Assembly (NCBI RefSeq): GCF_000317225.1
Contig: NZ_AJLL01000069.1
Location: 1 to 47,961 of the forward strand
Direction of reading: 5' to 3'
Length of the DNA: 47,961 bases
From: Fischerella thermalis PCC 7521
Lineage (GTDB): Bacteria; Cyanobacteriota; Cyanobacteriia; Cyanobacteriales; Nostocaceae
Positions 8,903 through 42,661 of this stretch are shown here, one piece after another; position 1 is the first letter of the stretch; each line of letters starts with the position of its first letter. The notes below the pieces were generated by a model that was given only the letters and a program-made list of their open reading frames with translations, searched no databases and was not told the origin of the DNA. A program made the translations under genes and the position numbers.

Positions 8903-10093
8903 TCAATCGGGTGGACTAGTAGGTTCGACAATCGATGTTGCGGTGGGGATGGGTGTGGGTTCTATTTCAAGAACAGGTGGTTTTTCTTCCTTGGGCTGTA
9001 TTTCTGGTGTTGGTTCGACAGTCGGTGTTGCGGTGGGGATGGGTGTGGGTTCTATTTCAAGAACAGGTGGTTTTTCTTCCTTGGGCTGTATTTCTGGTGT
9101 TGGTTCGACAATCGGTGTTGCGGTGGGGATGGGTGTGGGTTCAACAGTTGGTGGCTTAGTTGTGTAATTAGGATCTACAATTGAGCGAACTTGATCTGCT
9201 GATAGTTCTCCTCTAACTATTCTAGAAAGGGTGTCTTTCCCCTTGGGTTCATAGGTTATCAGCCGAACCGTACTGTTAAATTCATTTTTGACGGGACTGC
9301 CCTGGTTGTCGAGAAATTCCAGTTTTACCCAGTTTTTACCTGGTTTAAAACCTTTCAGGTAAATTGCTTGCCAGCGGTCAAGCACAAAGCTTTCACCATT
9401 AATTGTGCAGCGAATGCGCCAATCTGCAAATGGGTTATCAGGATTGTCTTTAGCTAGCAGATGTAACGGCGCATTGGTTAAATAAAAGTCCAGTAAAATC
9501 GGTTCTGCCCCATAGTTACCATCAGGACGGTTGTAGGTTAACAAGGGCAATGCTGGATCAGGCTTATTACTATCGCTCTTAGTGAAAACATGAAATGTTG
9601 TTTGGGCGTAAGCACCTTCATTCTTATAGCTTTCGTGCCAAGGACGAGAAGCAAAAACACGGAGAGTATGAGTACCTGGAGGTAAGTCAGATAAAACTAA
9701 GGGTTGATTTAGGTCATAAACTTCTATACCTGGTTGATTGTCCAGAATTACCTGGAGATGGGGGCCTAAGTTTAATTTCGAGTCTTTGTAAATAGGAAGA
9801 TCCTTGACCTGAAAACGGACTGTGACTGTGTTATCTTGAAGGATTTCCTCGGACTTGGGGGAAAGTATTGATACTTGTGGTCTGTATAAGTCAGTAGTTT
9901 GCCGTAGTTCTTGGACGGTAATTGGTGGGGCAACTTCTGAGAATTGCTTTGTAGAAATTTCAGGGTTTTGCTGGAAGCTAGCAGATGGTTCTTGACTAAC
10001 AGCTTTTTCACCACAACTCGTCAGACTTAATATCAGTACTAAAGCGATTAGCGACTTTAGGAGAGTTACAGCTGTCGTCCGTCGCGAGTTCAT
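8903..10093 (-). CDS. Lipoprotein with Pro/Thr repeat tail
   Basis: A 396-residue exported protein. The N-terminus is a lipoprotein signal (RRTTAVTLLKSLIALVLILS, then lipobox LTSC with the Cys at about residue 27). The body, residues about 70-300, appears beta-rich with Ig-like text (VSILSPKSEEILQDNTVTVRF; LSDLPPGTHTLRVFA; WRIRCTINGESF), typical of conserved cyanobacterial proteins without known function. The C-terminal 80 residues are two full and one partial copy of a 30-residue unit rich in Pro, Thr and Glu (EPTPIPTATP, VEPTPEIQPKEEKPP), encoded by a 90-base tandem repeat. Such a tail could span the periplasm or bind the cell wall; that is inference. It is transcribed alone. Confidence 0.8.
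   Translation of the reverse strand: MNSRRTTAVTLLKSLIALVLILSLTSCGEKAVSQEPSASFQQNPEISTKQFSEVAPPITVQELRQTTDLYRPQVSILSPKSEEILQDNTVTVRFQVKDLPIYKDSKLNLGPHLQVILDNQPGIEVYDLNQPLVLSDLPPGTHTLRVFASRPWHESYKNEGAYAQTTFHVFTKSDSNKPDPALPLLTYNRPDGNYGAEPILLDFYLTNAPLHLLAKDNPDNPFADWRIRCTINGESFVLDRWQAIYLKGFKPGKNWVKLEFLDNQGSPVKNEFNSTVRLITYEPKGKDTLSRIVRGELSADQVRSIVDPNYTTKPPTVEPTPIPTATPIVEPTPEIQPKEEKPPVLEIEPTPIPTATPTVEPTPEIQPKEEKPPVLEIEPTPIPTATSIVEPTSPPD
8936..9142. repeat. 90-bp tandem repeat in the lipoprotein gene
   Basis: The segment beginning CGGTGGGGATGGGTGTGGGT occurs at 8941, 9031 and 9121, a 90-base period with very few differences. The period is a multiple of three, so each unit adds 30 residues without a frameshift. 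Confidence 0.9.
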
Positions 10094-10198
10094 GTTTTTG
10101 ACTTAACTCATTAACAACTGAAAGATTATTTTGGCTCAAAGTACCCACTCAAAAACATAACCAAAAGGTGAAATTCCTCGTCCCCTTGTGGGCGAGGA

Positions 10199-10280
10199 GT
10201 TTGGTAATTGGTAATTGGTAATTGGTAATTGGTAATTGGTAATTGGTTTTCCCATTACCGATTACCCATTACCCATTACC
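10199..10280. repeat. GGTAATT heptamer tract with inverted partner
   Basis: About six tandem copies of GGTAATT are followed by GGTTTTCCCATTACC and copies of ATTACCC. The two halves are complementary and could fold into a long hairpin. The same heptamer, on the other strand, makes up the array at the window end. Confidence 0.8.
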
Positions 10281-10547
10281 ACGACGGGGCGACTTTTCTC
10301 TACACCCACGAGGCGTATCGCATCCCCGTCGCTTTGGTGAAATCTCCCTTACCTCTAGCAGAAAATCTGAATTTTAATTTACTGATGAAAGCATAAATTA
10401 ATCTTATGTAATAAAAATAACTATTTTTCTTAATAGTAATTTAACCATATTTTAGTAGCCCATGTAACAGAAATACCTCGATCTGGCAATAAGGTTGTAA
10501 CTAAAAGATAGAGTAGGTTACTTGAAATTGAACTATAAACTTTGCGA

Positions 10548-10565
10548 ATTGTTTACCTTTGTAAA
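10548..10565 (-). promoter_or_regulatory. HLR1-like (RpaB) site upstream of psaA, tentative
   Basis: Read on the minus strand the site is TTTACAAAGGTAAACAAT. The first half fits the HLR1 half-site consensus (G/T)TTACA(T/A)(T/A), followed by the two-base spacer; the second half has two mismatches. RpaB is known to control photosystem I genes through HLR1 in cyanobacteria. Placement about 270 bases before the start codon is plausible only if the leader is long. Confidence 0.25.
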
Positions 10566-10833
10566 ATATATGGAGAAACTATTGACTTTTTGACAAGTGC
10601 TTTGCACTCAAAAAGCAGATTATGCAGTTACTCCAAGGATTTTGAATTATTGTTAAAATGTCTCCAACAATGTGCGAGAGAAGACTTTATAATTCAACAG
10701 AAACCACTCTCCACACAAGGTCTTCATCGCAGCTCCAAAAATTAATGGAGAAAGCGACTAAGCTTTACCAAAGCCAGAGAAGACGTCCTGTGGTATCCAT
10801 AATTCCTCAGTCCTTTTTAAGAGAGGAGGTCGA

Positions 10834-27073: not shown

Positions 27074-27970
27074 ATGCTTAATCAACGTTCATTTCAAAAT
27101 ATAATTTCACCAAAGTTTCTTAGCTTAGTAATTCTAGCTATTTTAGGGCTGCTTTATGCCCCTCTTTTACTGCATTGGCTCGATGGTTGGTTACATAAAA
27201 ATATCAGCACAGAACACGAATATTTTAGTCACGGTATTATTGGTTTACCTTTTGCTGCATATACAGCTTGGCTAAAGCGGAAAATTTGGCAAAGACTACC
27301 AGACCGTCAACATCCCTTTGGTGCTGTCCTCTTATTAATAGGAGGAATTTTTTATCTAAGTGGGGTCAGCGAATGGGTTAATCTTTCCTTCCCCGCCATA
27401 CTTGCAGGATTGTGCTTATGGTTCAAAGGCATCCCTGGCTTAAAATTACAAAAGTTTTCCTTGCTGTTAGTTTTTCTGGCAACACCAACACTACTTCCGT
27501 ATTTGATAGCACCCTACACCTTTCCTTTGCAGAGTTTCATTGCTGGCACAGCAGGCTTTATCTTAAATCAGTTTGGCATGACAGTCATCGTCGATGAAAT
27601 CAATATATATGTGGGGGGAAGAATTGTAGAAGTAGCTCCCTACTGTGCAGGTTTAAAAATGTTATTTACTACTCTCTATGTTGGCTTGATGCTACTTTAT
27701 TGGACTGGTAAATTATCATCTCGACGCAAGACCATTTCATTTTTATTGATCGCAATGTTGATTAGTATCAGCGGTAATATCATTCGTAATACTTTATTAA
27801 CCTATTTTCATGGTACGGGTAATGAAGGAGCGTTCCATTGGTTACATGACAGTTGGGGCGGCGATATGTTTTCTGCCGTCATGTTAATGCTATTGATACC
27901 CGTGCTGAATAATATTGATAATTTCTTCTCCGGATCTGTAGAAATTCAGCAAAAACAAGTTAGTGGTTAG
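27074..27970 (+). CDS. Exosortase (cyanoexosortase type)
   Basis: A 298-residue membrane protein with about eight helices that should be a transpeptidase-like enzyme sorting proteins with PEP-CTERM tails to the envelope. The catalytic triad is visible: C191 in VEVAPYCAGLKML, R238 in SGNIIRNTLLTYFHG and H258 in WLHDSWGGD. The N-terminal EHEYFSHGIIGLPF is also typical. It fits the cyanoexosortase B group best, by memory. The usual EpsI-like partner protein is not encoded next to it: the following gene is msrA after 55 bases. No clear PEP-CTERM substrate is encoded in the window. The neighbouring aminotransferase gene may belong to the same glycan pathway. Confidence 0.85.
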   Translation: MLNQRSFQNIISPKFLSLVILAILGLLYAPLLLHWLDGWLHKNISTEHEYFSHGIIGLPFAAYTAWLKRKIWQRLPDRQHPFGAVLLLIGGIFYLSGVSEWVNLSFPAILAGLCLWFKGIPGLKLQKFSLLLVFLATPTLLPYLIAPYTFPLQSFIAGTAGFILNQFGMTVIVDEINIYVGGRIVEVAPYCAGLKMLFTTLYVGLMLLYWTGKLSSRRKTISFLLIAMLISISGNIIRNTLLTYFHGTGNEGAFHWLHDSWGGDMFSAVMLMLLIPVLNNIDNFFSGSVEIQQKQVSG

Positions 27971-35659: not shown

Positions 35660-36067
35660 ATGAGCGAACCTAAAGGCAGTAAAACTCAAGCTAGAGTTTG
35701 GGTGGTGGAAAATGGCAAAATGCGATCGCGAGGAGGTCTGCACGCTGCTGCTTTATTTGATGCTCAAGGGCAGTTGTTAACAGTAACAGAGGATGTAGGA
35801 CGTCACAATGCCTTGGATAAACTCATTGGTTCAGCTTTATTAAGCGATCGCTTACCTTTGCATAATCACATTGTGATGGTCAGTGGACGCTCTAGCTTTG
35901 AGATTTTACAAAAGTGTATAGTTGCTGGAATTCCAATTATTTGTGCTGTTTCTGCTCCTAGTAGTTTAGCAGTTTCTGTAGCTAAGGAGTTTGGCATCAC
36001 TTTAATCGGATTTTTGTGCGAACAAAAGTTCAATGTTTATTCTGGACGGGAAAGAATAAATATATAG
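35660..36067 (+). pseudogene. C-terminal half of FdhD (formate dehydrogenase accessory protein), truncated
   Basis: A 135-residue frame. From [10 protein letters not shown] (residues 25-34) onward it matches the second half of Fdh[68 protein letters not shown]. Full FdhD is about 260-280 residues, and the sulfur-transfer Cys pair lies in the missing N-terminal half. The first 24 residues ([15 protein letters not shown]) are not FdhD-like. Upstream DNA carries no recognisable remainder. It is most likely a decayed fragment; a standalone domain is possible. No formate dehydrogenase gene lies nearby. Confidence 0.75.
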
Positions 36068-40488: not shown

Positions 40489-40815
40489 TTAAGATGTTAA
40501 ATTTATAACCCAAATCCAACAGCCACCATTGAGTAAAGCAGTGAAAATCGCACCAATAATAACCCCCTTCATCAAGGCAAATTTTTCTTGCCTTTTCAGT
40601 CGCAAAAGCACAGGAATGATATATACAACTTGCGTTATACCAATTCCAAAAAAATAGACTAAAAAAATTGTCTGAAAAAATCTGATGCTATATTGAGAAG
40701 CAATTATTAATTCTATATAAGCAAGAATGCCCAAAATCAAAGTTGCGATGATATGCATTCCCAGGACGAGAAAAATTCCGCCGATCACATAATAAAATTC
40801 ATTCCTTCTCGACAT
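40489..40815 (-). CDS. Small four-helix membrane protein, downstream of the radical SAM gene
   Basis: A 108-residue protein with four predicted membrane spans: FYYVIGGIFLVLGMHIIAT, LGILAYIELIIAS, FQTIFLVYFFGIGITQVVYIIPVLL and MKGVIIGAIFTALLNGGCWIWVI, with a basic loop (RLKRQEK) between the third and fourth. No family was recognised. It begins 9 bases after the stop codon of the radical SAM gene on the same strand, which strongly suggests co-transcription and translational coupling. A membrane role together with the radical SAM enzyme is plausible, but function is unknown. Confidence 0.75.
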   Translation of the reverse strand: MSRRNEFYYVIGGIFLVLGMHIIATLILGILAYIELIIASQYSIRFFQTIFLVYFFGIGITQVVYIIPVLLRLKRQEKFALMKGVIIGAIFTALLNGGCWIWVINLTS

Positions 40816-40824
40816 GTAGCTTCC

Positions 40825-42255
40825 TTAATTGGCAAAATTAAGTCTTTGATTATTAATCAAATCATACCCTGTACTACCTTGGCGATAAAATATATTAAAA
40901 GTATCAAAGGGAATGATTCTGCCATCTGGGTGGACAATATGAATACACGATCGCTTCACTGAACGCACATCAAAGTTATAGGGATCAAGAAACTGGACAA
41001 TCATCACCCGAAAAATATTGGCGTAGGTAATTCCTTCGGGAACGGGAAGCATTGGCAAACAACACAAAAGCTGCTTTAATGATGTGGCGGCAGAAGTAGG
41101 TGAATGACTGGTGGAAAATAACTCAAAAATGTGGCGTTTGAGTTCTGGGTTTTGTTCATAAAGTACACTGTTGGGCATAATTTCCACAAACTTTTCAGGA
41201 TTAATTAACCCAGTTAGAGGTATAACTTTACCATTTAATTTGAGTGCATAAGCCATTGCCAAACAATCGGGATGGCAAGGAACAGGTAGAATATCTTCTG
41301 GTTTAAAATAAGGACTTTGTTGTAATATTGACCTGCGTACTTCAGTAAGAGTGTACCTGTCTCGCTTGGGATCAAAGCCTTGCAAACGTCCAGCAGCTTG
41401 GATTGGTTGAAACGTCACGCCGCGTACGCAAGGCTGTTGCAAAGCATACTCAATTATTTTGCCGATTTCGTGGTCATTCAGCCCTTTTTTGAGGGTAACA
41501 ACTAAAGTTGTAGAGATATTATACTCATTGAGGTGAGCGATCGCCATTTTCCTAACGCTACGCAAATCTACACCCCGCAAATCTTTTAGCGCTTCTGCCT
41601 CCAAGCTATCAAATTGCAGATATACTTCTATACCAGGCATATATTGACTCAGGCGACTGCAAAAAGTTTTATCTTTCGCAATTCGCACGCCATTAGTATT
41701 AATCATTAAATGTTTAATTGGCTTGCTTTTGGCAAGATCCATAATTTCAAAAAACTCTGGGTGGATTGTTGGTTCACCACCACTCAACTGCACAATTTGC
41801 GGTTCTCCCTCATTCGTCACTACCGCATCAATCATGCTTGCAATTTCTGCTAAACTGCGGTGTCGTCTGGATTGATGAGAAACTTGTGAAAATTCTTCCG
41901 CACCGGAATCAGCATAACAAATTGGGCAAGAAAGATTGCATCTATCTGTAACTTCTATTAAAGTTAAACAACTATGCTGTTCATGATCTGGGCAGAGCCC
42001 ACAATCATAAGGACAACCATATTTAATTGGTGTATTAAACTTGAGTGGCATATCTCCTGGTTTGATAAATTCCAGGGATTTTTTGTAATATCCAACATCA
42101 TCAGCAATTAAAACTTCTTCTCGTCCGTGGGTGGGACAATGTTTAATTAAGTAAACGCGATCATCTTGAAAAATGATTTTTGCTTCGACTTTGCTGAGAC
42201 ACTTGGAACAAATACTATTTGTCAAAGCGTAAAATACGTAATTGCGAGTAGGCAT
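40825..42255 (-). CDS. Radical SAM protein resembling Tes/MJ0619 (tetraether lipid synthase) relatives
   Basis: A 476-residue protein starting at the ATG at 42255 (MPTRNYVFYALTNSICSKCL; the frame extends 19 codons further without support). The N-terminus looks like a small zinc or iron-binding ribbon (C16, C19, C40 in HCPTHGREEV). Then comes KYGCPYDCGLCPDHEQHSC (C81, C85, C88, C96), a second cluster-type motif, and the radical SAM motif CNLSCPIC (C106, C110, C113). The SAM-binding GGEP is in VQLSGGEPTIHPE, and PCHPDC follows in the C-terminal half. This Cys layout matches what I recall of archaeal Tes (MJ0619 group) and bacterial relatives, which join lipid chains or act on pterins. Substrate unknown; the downstream gene encodes a small membrane protein. 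Confidence 0.85.
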   Translation of the reverse strand: MPTRNYVFYALTNSICSKCLSKVEAKIIFQDDRVYLIKHCPTHGREEVLIADDVGYYKKSLEFIKPGDMPLKFNTPIKYGCPYDCGLCPDHEQHSCLTLIEVTDRCNLSCPICYADSGAEEFSQVSHQSRRHRSLAEIASMIDAVVTNEGEPQIVQLSGGEPTIHPEFFEIMDLAKSKPIKHLMINTNGVRIAKDKTFCSRLSQYMPGIEVYLQFDSLEAEALKDLRGVDLRSVRKMAIAHLNEYNISTTLVVTLKKGLNDHEIGKIIEYALQQPCVRGVTFQPIQAAGRLQGFDPKRDRYTLTEVRRSILQQSPYFKPEDILPVPCHPDCLAMAYALKLNGKVIPLTGLINPEKFVEIMPNSVLYEQNPELKRHIFELFSTSHSPTSAATSLKQLLCCLPMLPVPEGITYANIFRVMIVQFLDPYNFDVRSVKRSCIHIVHPDGRIIPFDTFNIFYRQGSTGYDLINNQRLNFAN

Positions 42256-42385
42256 AGTGCAGAAGTTTGTTTTTAAAACCACGATAAAATTTATCTTTTG
42301 GAAATCGCACACAGTGCAAGGCGATAAACACCGATGTACACAGATAGATTATTTACCGGAATGCATTTATGTTTTGAAGTGCTGT

Positions 42386-42661
42386 TTATTCACCAGGCTG
42401 TGGTATGAGCCTATACAATAGCCACAGAGCAACAATTACTCCCACCAATTCCGCAGCGATCGCACAGCTAACTGCTTGCATAGAGATAATTTGCAGGGGA
42501 GTAATTGGTAAATTTGAAGTTGTGATCGCCGCACCAGGTAAGGGTGTATATAGGGGGATACTTCCCAACACTAACTGTAGCCAGAAACCAATCCAACCTA
42601 GTATGCGAAATTTGCTGGCAATTCTACGAACGTTGGTTGATGGCGAGTGTGATGTATGCAT
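42386..42661 (-). pseudogene. Short DUF3611-like membrane protein, possibly a deletion remnant
   Basis: A 91-residue frame. The start VRRIASKFRILGWIGFWLQLVLGSIPL resembles the N-terminal helix of cyanobacterial DUF3611 proteins, which are usually about 180-200 residues, and the end (AIAAELVGVIVALWLLYRLI) resembles a later helix. The middle (TPLPGAAITTSNLPIT) is short, so about half the family length seems to be missing. It may be a shortened gene or a real small two-helix protein. Similarity is from memory; confidence is limited. Confidence 0.45.

Follow-up and report, generated by a model that had tools for sequence, protein, structure and literature searches.

A Tes-like radical SAM gene and its small membrane neighbour in Fischerella thermalis: candidate parts of a three-part bacterial membrane system

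What does an enzyme resembling the archaeal lipid synthase Tes do beside a small membrane protein in a cyanobacterium? The question is raised by a stretch of 47,961 nucleotides from Fischerella thermalis PCC 7521 (the whole of which is called the window below), which carries on its minus strand a gene for a radical S-adenosylmethionine (radical SAM) protein and, after a gap of 9 bases, an open reading frame (ORF) for a small membrane protein, both as the initial annotation had placed them. The explanation that we favour, at a probability of about 0.45, places both genes in a bacterial membrane system of three parts: a paralogue of the prolipoprotein diacylglyceryl transferase Lgt, the Tes-like enzyme and one or more tiny membrane proteins with a Cys that would be lipidated. 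That the three genes make up one functional unit is very probable. The genes are linked and co-occur, the radical SAM protein has the Tes fold, the Lgt paralogue has an altered active site, and the small proteins have a conserved Cys in a signal-peptide-like setting.

A relative of Tes in many bacterial groups

The two window genes and their motifs are as follows.

40825 to 42255, minus strand: Tes-like radical SAM protein (P0001, 476 residues), with the ATG at 42255 and the stop codon ending at 40825
42127 to 42210, minus strand: rubredoxin/zinc-ribbon-like motif C16-x2-C19-x20-C40-x2-H43 (Pfam PF23545, 63.6 bits)
41968 to 42015, minus strand: N-terminal auxiliary cluster motif CPYDCGLCPDHEQHSC (C81, C85, C88, His, C96), which aligns to the Tes [Fe4S4]N ligand segment
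41917 to 41940, minus strand: radical SAM cluster motif CxxxCxxC (CNLSCPIC; C106, C110, C113; PF04055, 77.8 bits; 32 of 32 aligned sequences)
40945 to 41277, minus strand: C-terminal region with C327, C398, C399 and C437, all four invariant in 32 of 32
40489 to 40815, minus strand: small membrane protein (P0002, 108 residues) with three predicted helices
40519 to 40521, minus strand: codon of Cys99 of P0002, the proposed modification site (KGVIIGAIFTALLNGGC); Cys in 18 of 18 aligned proteins, itself included

An in-frame GTG at 42312 is a possible upstream start of the radical SAM ORF; the nearest homologues begin at the ATG at 42255. The N-terminal Cys ribbon, the CPYDCGLC segment and the CxxxCxxC core, from which kinship with Tes had originally been suggested, are all present, and each was invariant in an alignment of 32 sequences that includes the window protein. 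The ribbon has the spacing of its Tes counterpart (C9x2C12x20C33x2H36), and the invariant positions of the CPYDCGLC segment are C81, C85 and C88 together with H91, H94 and C96. In the fold comparison Tes was the best, full-length match; the next group was the peptide maturase SuiB tied with MoaA, and SkfB came after. The predicted local distance difference test (pLDDT) value of the model falls below 50 at residues 356–369 and 371–403. The four invariant C-terminal Cys residues are proposed to hold an auxiliary cluster with ligands unlike those of Tes.

The suggested kinship thus held for the fold and the three cluster motifs, and did not extend to two Tes residues or to the score set for the Tes family. 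Tyr459 and Met439 of Tes are fully conserved across 1000 archaeal homologues (PMC9433317; this and all other papers are cited from excerpts). The corresponding residues of the window protein are I440 and V420, with Ile in 31 of the 32 aligned sequences at the first position and Met in 23 at the second, while C331, which aligns to a Tes Cys, is retained in 17. The best NCBIfam match was the full-length TrsS model NF045646 at 319.7 bits (cut-off 490), and the Tes model NF045702 gave 284.8 bits, under its cut-off of 450; the GDGT ring synthase family (GrsA/GrsB) was not among the matches listed (25 of the 64 from NCBIfam). Judged by its sequence, the enzyme is a relative of Tes and not Tes itself.

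Relatives are encoded on at least 558 of 585 pattern-matched genome-contig stretches. The best 80 of these 558, with 58–86% identity, form the locus set (L029–L108), which is biased toward close relatives. Their hosts are cyanobacteria, Bacilli, Bacteroidota, Acidobacteria, Planctomycetes, Melainabacteria/Obscuribacterales, a spirochaete, an alphaproteobacterium and others. With hosts in so many groups, the initial idea of a system special to a photosynthetic bacterium falls. Among 292 genomes drawn from a larger group of the window's phylum, its own genome included, the radical SAM gene was found in 10 at an expect value of 1e-20 or better; one of the 10 is G050 (64% complete), whose protein is a distant relative at 30–34% identity.

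An Lgt paralogue with an altered active site

An Lgt-like gene lies on the same strand, at most 1.3 kilobases upstream of the radical SAM gene, in 72 of the 80 loci. Its position is within −200 to +160 nucleotides in 64 of them, a number that includes one gene split into two ORFs (L098) and one 170-residue piece (L095), and at 161–1300 nucleotides in the other eight; two further loci (L030 and L053) have it elsewhere. Against PF01790, five full-length members scored 75–103 bits and a fragment 26.6 bits. The window itself has no Lgt-like gene beside the radical SAM gene. The genome's copy is unlinked, on the contig labelled C69, and scores 108.8 bits against the gathering cut-off of 24.9, compared with 283.1 bits for the canonical Lgt of the same genome. 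This copy (L027:9305-10045) ends 3 bases before an ORF resembling an ATP-binding cassette (ABC) permease of the nitrate/taurine type, a short ORF (10049-10624) that scores below the family cut-offs.

In the phylum survey, an Lgt-like profile at an expect value of 1e-50 matched 8 of the 292 genomes, and all 8, the window's genome among them, are within the 10 that have the radical SAM gene; the remaining two are G004 and G050, and in G050 the profile had no match at 1e-5. Protein distances of the Lgt-like and radical SAM proteins were correlated at 0.90 over 76 loci, with a maximum of 0.14 in 500 permutations, a correlation that is partly due to shared species history.

We aligned 81 Lgt-like sequences with the canonical Lgt of the window genome and with E. 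coli Lgt, and transferred the E. coli numbering by hand count on the pairwise alignment. The paralogue retains the RHPxQLYE segment, and Arg143, Arg239 and Tyr235 of E. coli Lgt are kept as R130, R204 and Y200 in 81 of 81. At the position of His103, which is Val91 in the window genome's copy, there is Val in 73 sequences, Leu in 3, Met in 3, Ile in 2 and His in none. Asn146 of the Lgt signature motif is replaced by Cys throughout (81/81; Cys133 in the window genome's copy), Glu243 stays Glu in 26 sequences and is Asp in the other 55, and Arg246 is retained in 2 sequences, the other 79 having Lys. The residues K88, E102, K105 and D157 are conserved specifically in the paralogue. Four Lgt-like proteins scanned with the TIGR00544 lgt model scored 28–57 bits, with a cut-off of 118.9.

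In E. coli Lgt, complementation is lost upon each of the replacements of His103 by Ala, Asn, Gln, Arg or Tyr, and fails for R246K; the HGGL motif is the proposed binder of the lipobox peptide, and the active site opens toward the periplasm (PMC4728403). Because the paralogue lacks His103 and has Lys for Arg246, the standard Lgt reaction cannot be assumed for it.

The small membrane proteins and their conserved cysteine

The small protein P0002 had been described as a four-helix protein. The AlphaFold2 model has three long helices instead, at residues 3–39, 44–75 and 79–107, with a mean pLDDT of 89. The linkage of the two genes goes beyond chance: in Bacilli and in further cyanobacteria, a homologue of the small gene directly follows the radical SAM gene. 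Residues G13, Q62, P68, G84, L94 and C99 are invariant in 18 small proteins from cyanobacteria and Bacilli.

We scored hydrophobic ORFs of 50–175 residues with at least two helices that start −45 to +150 nucleotides from the radical SAM stop codon. The count covers 87 loci, L022, L024 and L105 having been removed beforehand; L067, whose radical SAM ORF extends past the contig end, was excluded before the counts. A small downstream membrane ORF is present in 64 of the 87 loci. A C-terminal Cys, scored at residues −26 to −3 from the protein end, occurs in 62 of these 64 ORFs; among 86 comparable ORFs from other parts of these loci, 31 have one. Profiles of three small-protein groups collected 63 members in 58 loci, and 62 of the 63 have the C-terminal Cys. 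The shared layout of basic residues, hydrophobic helix, small residues and Cys is that of a lipoprotein signal. It was scored in 69 of 86 cassette ORFs and in 26 of 179 controls (Fisher p 9e-26, for related sequences and a post hoc layout); the greedy choice of ORFs in this count drops true small ORFs that are overlapped by spurious ones, and a featured ORF was retained in 62 of 88 loci. In P0002 the signal-like layout would be internal (KRQEKFALMKGVIIGAIFTALLNGGC). The classical lipoprotein test was negative for P0002, which has no N-terminal signal with lipobox; its Cys is residue 99 of 108, in the third helix.

Other small proteins occupy the cassette at some loci. Seven Paenibacillus/Saccharibacillus loci encode a Cys-rich ribbon followed by a single helix, whose end reads -ICG- in six loci and -LCA- in L057, upstream of the called start of the Lgt-like ORF or overlapping it. 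In six loci from Acidobacteria, the space between the Lgt-like gene and the radical SAM gene encodes up to three small proteins (at least one), in which the first helix ends in -GLCG-, -GACG-, -GLCF- or -SSLCA- (L064). The deeper relatives in the phylum (L017–L020) have lipoprotein-like ORFs of 62–184 residues in place of the small ORF, and L032 and L095 show a weaker or cut-off small-family match, which lies at the end of a contig or at some distance. Multiple copies of the small ORF were seen at L015, L031, L078, L084, L091, L094, L097, L100, L102 and L108. At L102 (11958-13603), four small membrane proteins follow the radical SAM gene in a run, with Cys near their ends but not in the copy closest to that gene.

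Comparison of profiles gave a probability of 99% for cyanobacterial versus Bacilli small proteins. Homology between the cyanobacterial/Bacilli and the Bacteroidota proteins was undetected (0.3%), so the shared Cys is due to convergence or, failing that, to a very remote common origin. When the small proteins were scanned with Pfam and NCBIfam, the single match to pass a cut-off was a B-box zinc finger in one of two scanned proteins of the Paenibacillus group; a plasmid search with P0002 gave no match. In the phylum survey the small-protein profile matched 6 of 292 genomes. Five of them also have the Lgt-like and the radical SAM gene; the sixth, G038, is 73% complete, gave no match to the radical SAM protein and has two tandem relatives (L125/L128), both without the Cys. 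The Cys is kept in an unlinked paralogue in G129 and in a degenerate one in G185.

Proposed mechanism, competing explanations and known systems

Radical SAM enzymes are cytosolic. In the proposed mechanism, a lipid pocket of the Tes type would receive a phospholipid of the bacterium, and the enzyme would change the ends of its acyl chains through radical coupling or another C–H modification. The Lgt paralogue, with its changed active site, would then attach a glyceryl-lipid thioether to the small-protein Cys, which sits at the end of a transmembrane helix that presumably faces outward. Alternatively, the paralogue might transfer an ordinary lipid that is altered later. Alteration before transfer is favoured because the radical SAM enzyme is cytosolic and the Lgt site opens to the periplasm. 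Archaeal Tes binds two phospholipids and was isolated with an E. coli phospholipid (PMC9433317), and its relative here most likely alters the lipid. We lean towards a role of the enzyme on the lipid part of the system. The Cys is probably what makes the small protein work, and we consider it an even chance that this Cys is lipidated. A protein-lipidation route of its own, distinct from Lgt-LspA-Lnt, in which the Tes-like enzyme makes an unusual anchor (perhaps tail-coupled, membrane-spanning or macrocyclic) and the paralogue joins it to the small-protein Cys, is a tentative and rather doubtful extension.

Several points weigh against the three-part system. The paralogue, without His103 and with Lys for Arg246, may be no transferase at all, and the periplasmic Lgt site combined with a cytosolic radical SAM enzyme makes the order of steps a difficulty. 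No Lgt-like gene was found in 6 of the 80 loci (L032, L067, L081, L088, L096 and L105), and G004, where the radical SAM gene occurs together with a lipoprotein-like ORF, gave an Lgt match of the canonical type only. Of the 10 phylum genomes that carry the radical SAM gene, no more than 5 matched the small-protein profile. The downstream small ORF was not found in 23 of the 87 loci, 13 of which have a different small protein within the cassette; at L030, L053, L088 and L096 no small protein was seen in the cassette. Two of the 64 downstream ORFs (L091 and L102) lack the C-terminal Cys, which is carried by further copies at these loci. The Cys counts also weigh less, as 31 of the 86 control ORFs have a Cys anyway and the sequences are related, and the basic-helix-Cys score was defined after examples had been seen. 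The conserved Cys could instead be structural or metal-binding.

A structural Cys is part of the explanation that survives best beside the three-part system, namely a lipid-only system: an unusual free lipid, such as a membrane-spanning or tail-coupled one, would be synthesized or remodelled by the radical SAM enzyme together with the Lgt paralogue, and the small protein would act as their scaffold or as a regulator. The Tes fold would fit, the loss of His103 and Arg246 would suit lipid binding without protein acylation, and membrane-spanning lipid synthesis has been proposed for bacterial Tes homologues (PMC8941075). We nevertheless regard it as unlikely: the small-protein family switches between groups yet the helix-Cys layout persists, which would be needless for a mere scaffold, and Tyr459 of Tes is not kept. 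Still less probable is a peptide-modifying system, in which the enzyme would act on the small protein itself, for example by forming a bond to its Cys, in the manner of maturases of ribosomally synthesized and post-translationally modified peptides, with the paralogue as a membrane docking partner; the several copies of small ORFs at some loci make these look substrate-like, and SuiB stands in the best fold group after Tes. The gene that follows the radical SAM gene at L018:4615-6459 and L019:4719-6569 is presumably homocysteine S-methyltransferase-like. This neighbour and the HMPTM name of Pfam domain PF23545 would suit a small-molecule methylase or another enzyme of a soluble substrate with the membrane genes as bystanders, which is very improbable, since bystanders would not be expected to keep the Lgt-like gene in 72 of 80 loci. 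MJ0619 itself also turned out to be a lipid enzyme (PMC9433317).

Three other ORFs of the window were noted. Just upstream of the radical SAM gene is a 91-residue DUF3611-like ORF (42386-42661, minus strand), which matches the family in two stretches, the better covering 30 of 175 profile positions, and which may be a remnant. The 135-residue ORF at 35660-36067 (plus strand) presumably resembles the C-terminal half of the formate dehydrogenase accessory protein FdhD, and we take the ORF at 27074-27970 (plus strand) to resemble a cyanobacterial exosortase, another membrane protein-sorting enzyme.

The gene set is widespread in bacteria and little noticed, and it suggests an undescribed route for lipid attachment to proteins. 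If this holds, Paenibacillus, Chitinophaga, Mucilaginibacter and other genera of which strains are in culture would offer a new lipid anchor that can be tested. Among Creative Commons-licensed papers in PubMed Central (PMC), we found no published analysis of such a three-part membrane modification system, and none of the titles and abstracts listed connects a Tes-like radical SAM protein with Lgt or one of its paralogues, which does not prove absence; PMC7641849, PMC8939145 and PMC3877243 hold an Lgt term and radical SAM, with unrelated content in the excerpts. The excerpt of PMC12010503 mentions in passing, with no function proposed, a region of some 3,500 bases that is annotated with a radical SAM gene and a prolipoprotein diacylglyceryl transferase gene and that one of four Pseudarthrobacter single-cell soil genomes lacks; it may be the present cassette and would then add Actinomycetota.

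Bacterial Tes homologues have been counted before. PMC8941075 reports 456 of them, with function not established, including one from Edaphobacter aggregans with 32% identity to archaeal Tes, which may belong to the present family instead. PMC9433317 also notes such homologues without an established function, and the excerpts of neither paper mention Lgt-like neighbours. Lipid-biomarker work counts these homologues as possible makers of membrane-spanning lipids, with activity unconfirmed (PMC8941075, PMC11868695); if the present family is tied to the lipidation of proteins, whether in place of such synthesis or in addition to it, these counts must be divided.

With Tes/GDGT-MAS (MJ0619, PDB 7tol/7tom), the window family shares the full-length fold and three equally spaced cluster motifs, and it differs in Ile for Tyr459, another set of invariant C-terminal Cys residues, and Lgt-like and small membrane gene partners. 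All 32 aligned members match the TrsS radical SAM (seleno)protein model NF045646, the window protein below the cut-off. The bacterial membrane-spanning lipid synthase Mss couples two fatty acids and is tallied separately from bacterial Tes homologues in PMC11868695. The paralogue belongs to the Lgt family by Pfam (PF01790, 5azb/5azc), with Arg143, Arg239 and Tyr235 kept and His103, Asn146 and Arg246 changed. The small proteins had no MYXO-CTERM family match, and the term radical SAM is absent from the main text of PMC11980579. The myxosortase system described there is similar in that an Lgt-like enzyme is predicted to lipidate a Cys next to a C-terminal helix, although the order in MYXO-CTERM is Cys, helix and Arg-rich tail, whereas the cassette proteins have basic residues, helix and Cys (PMC11980579).
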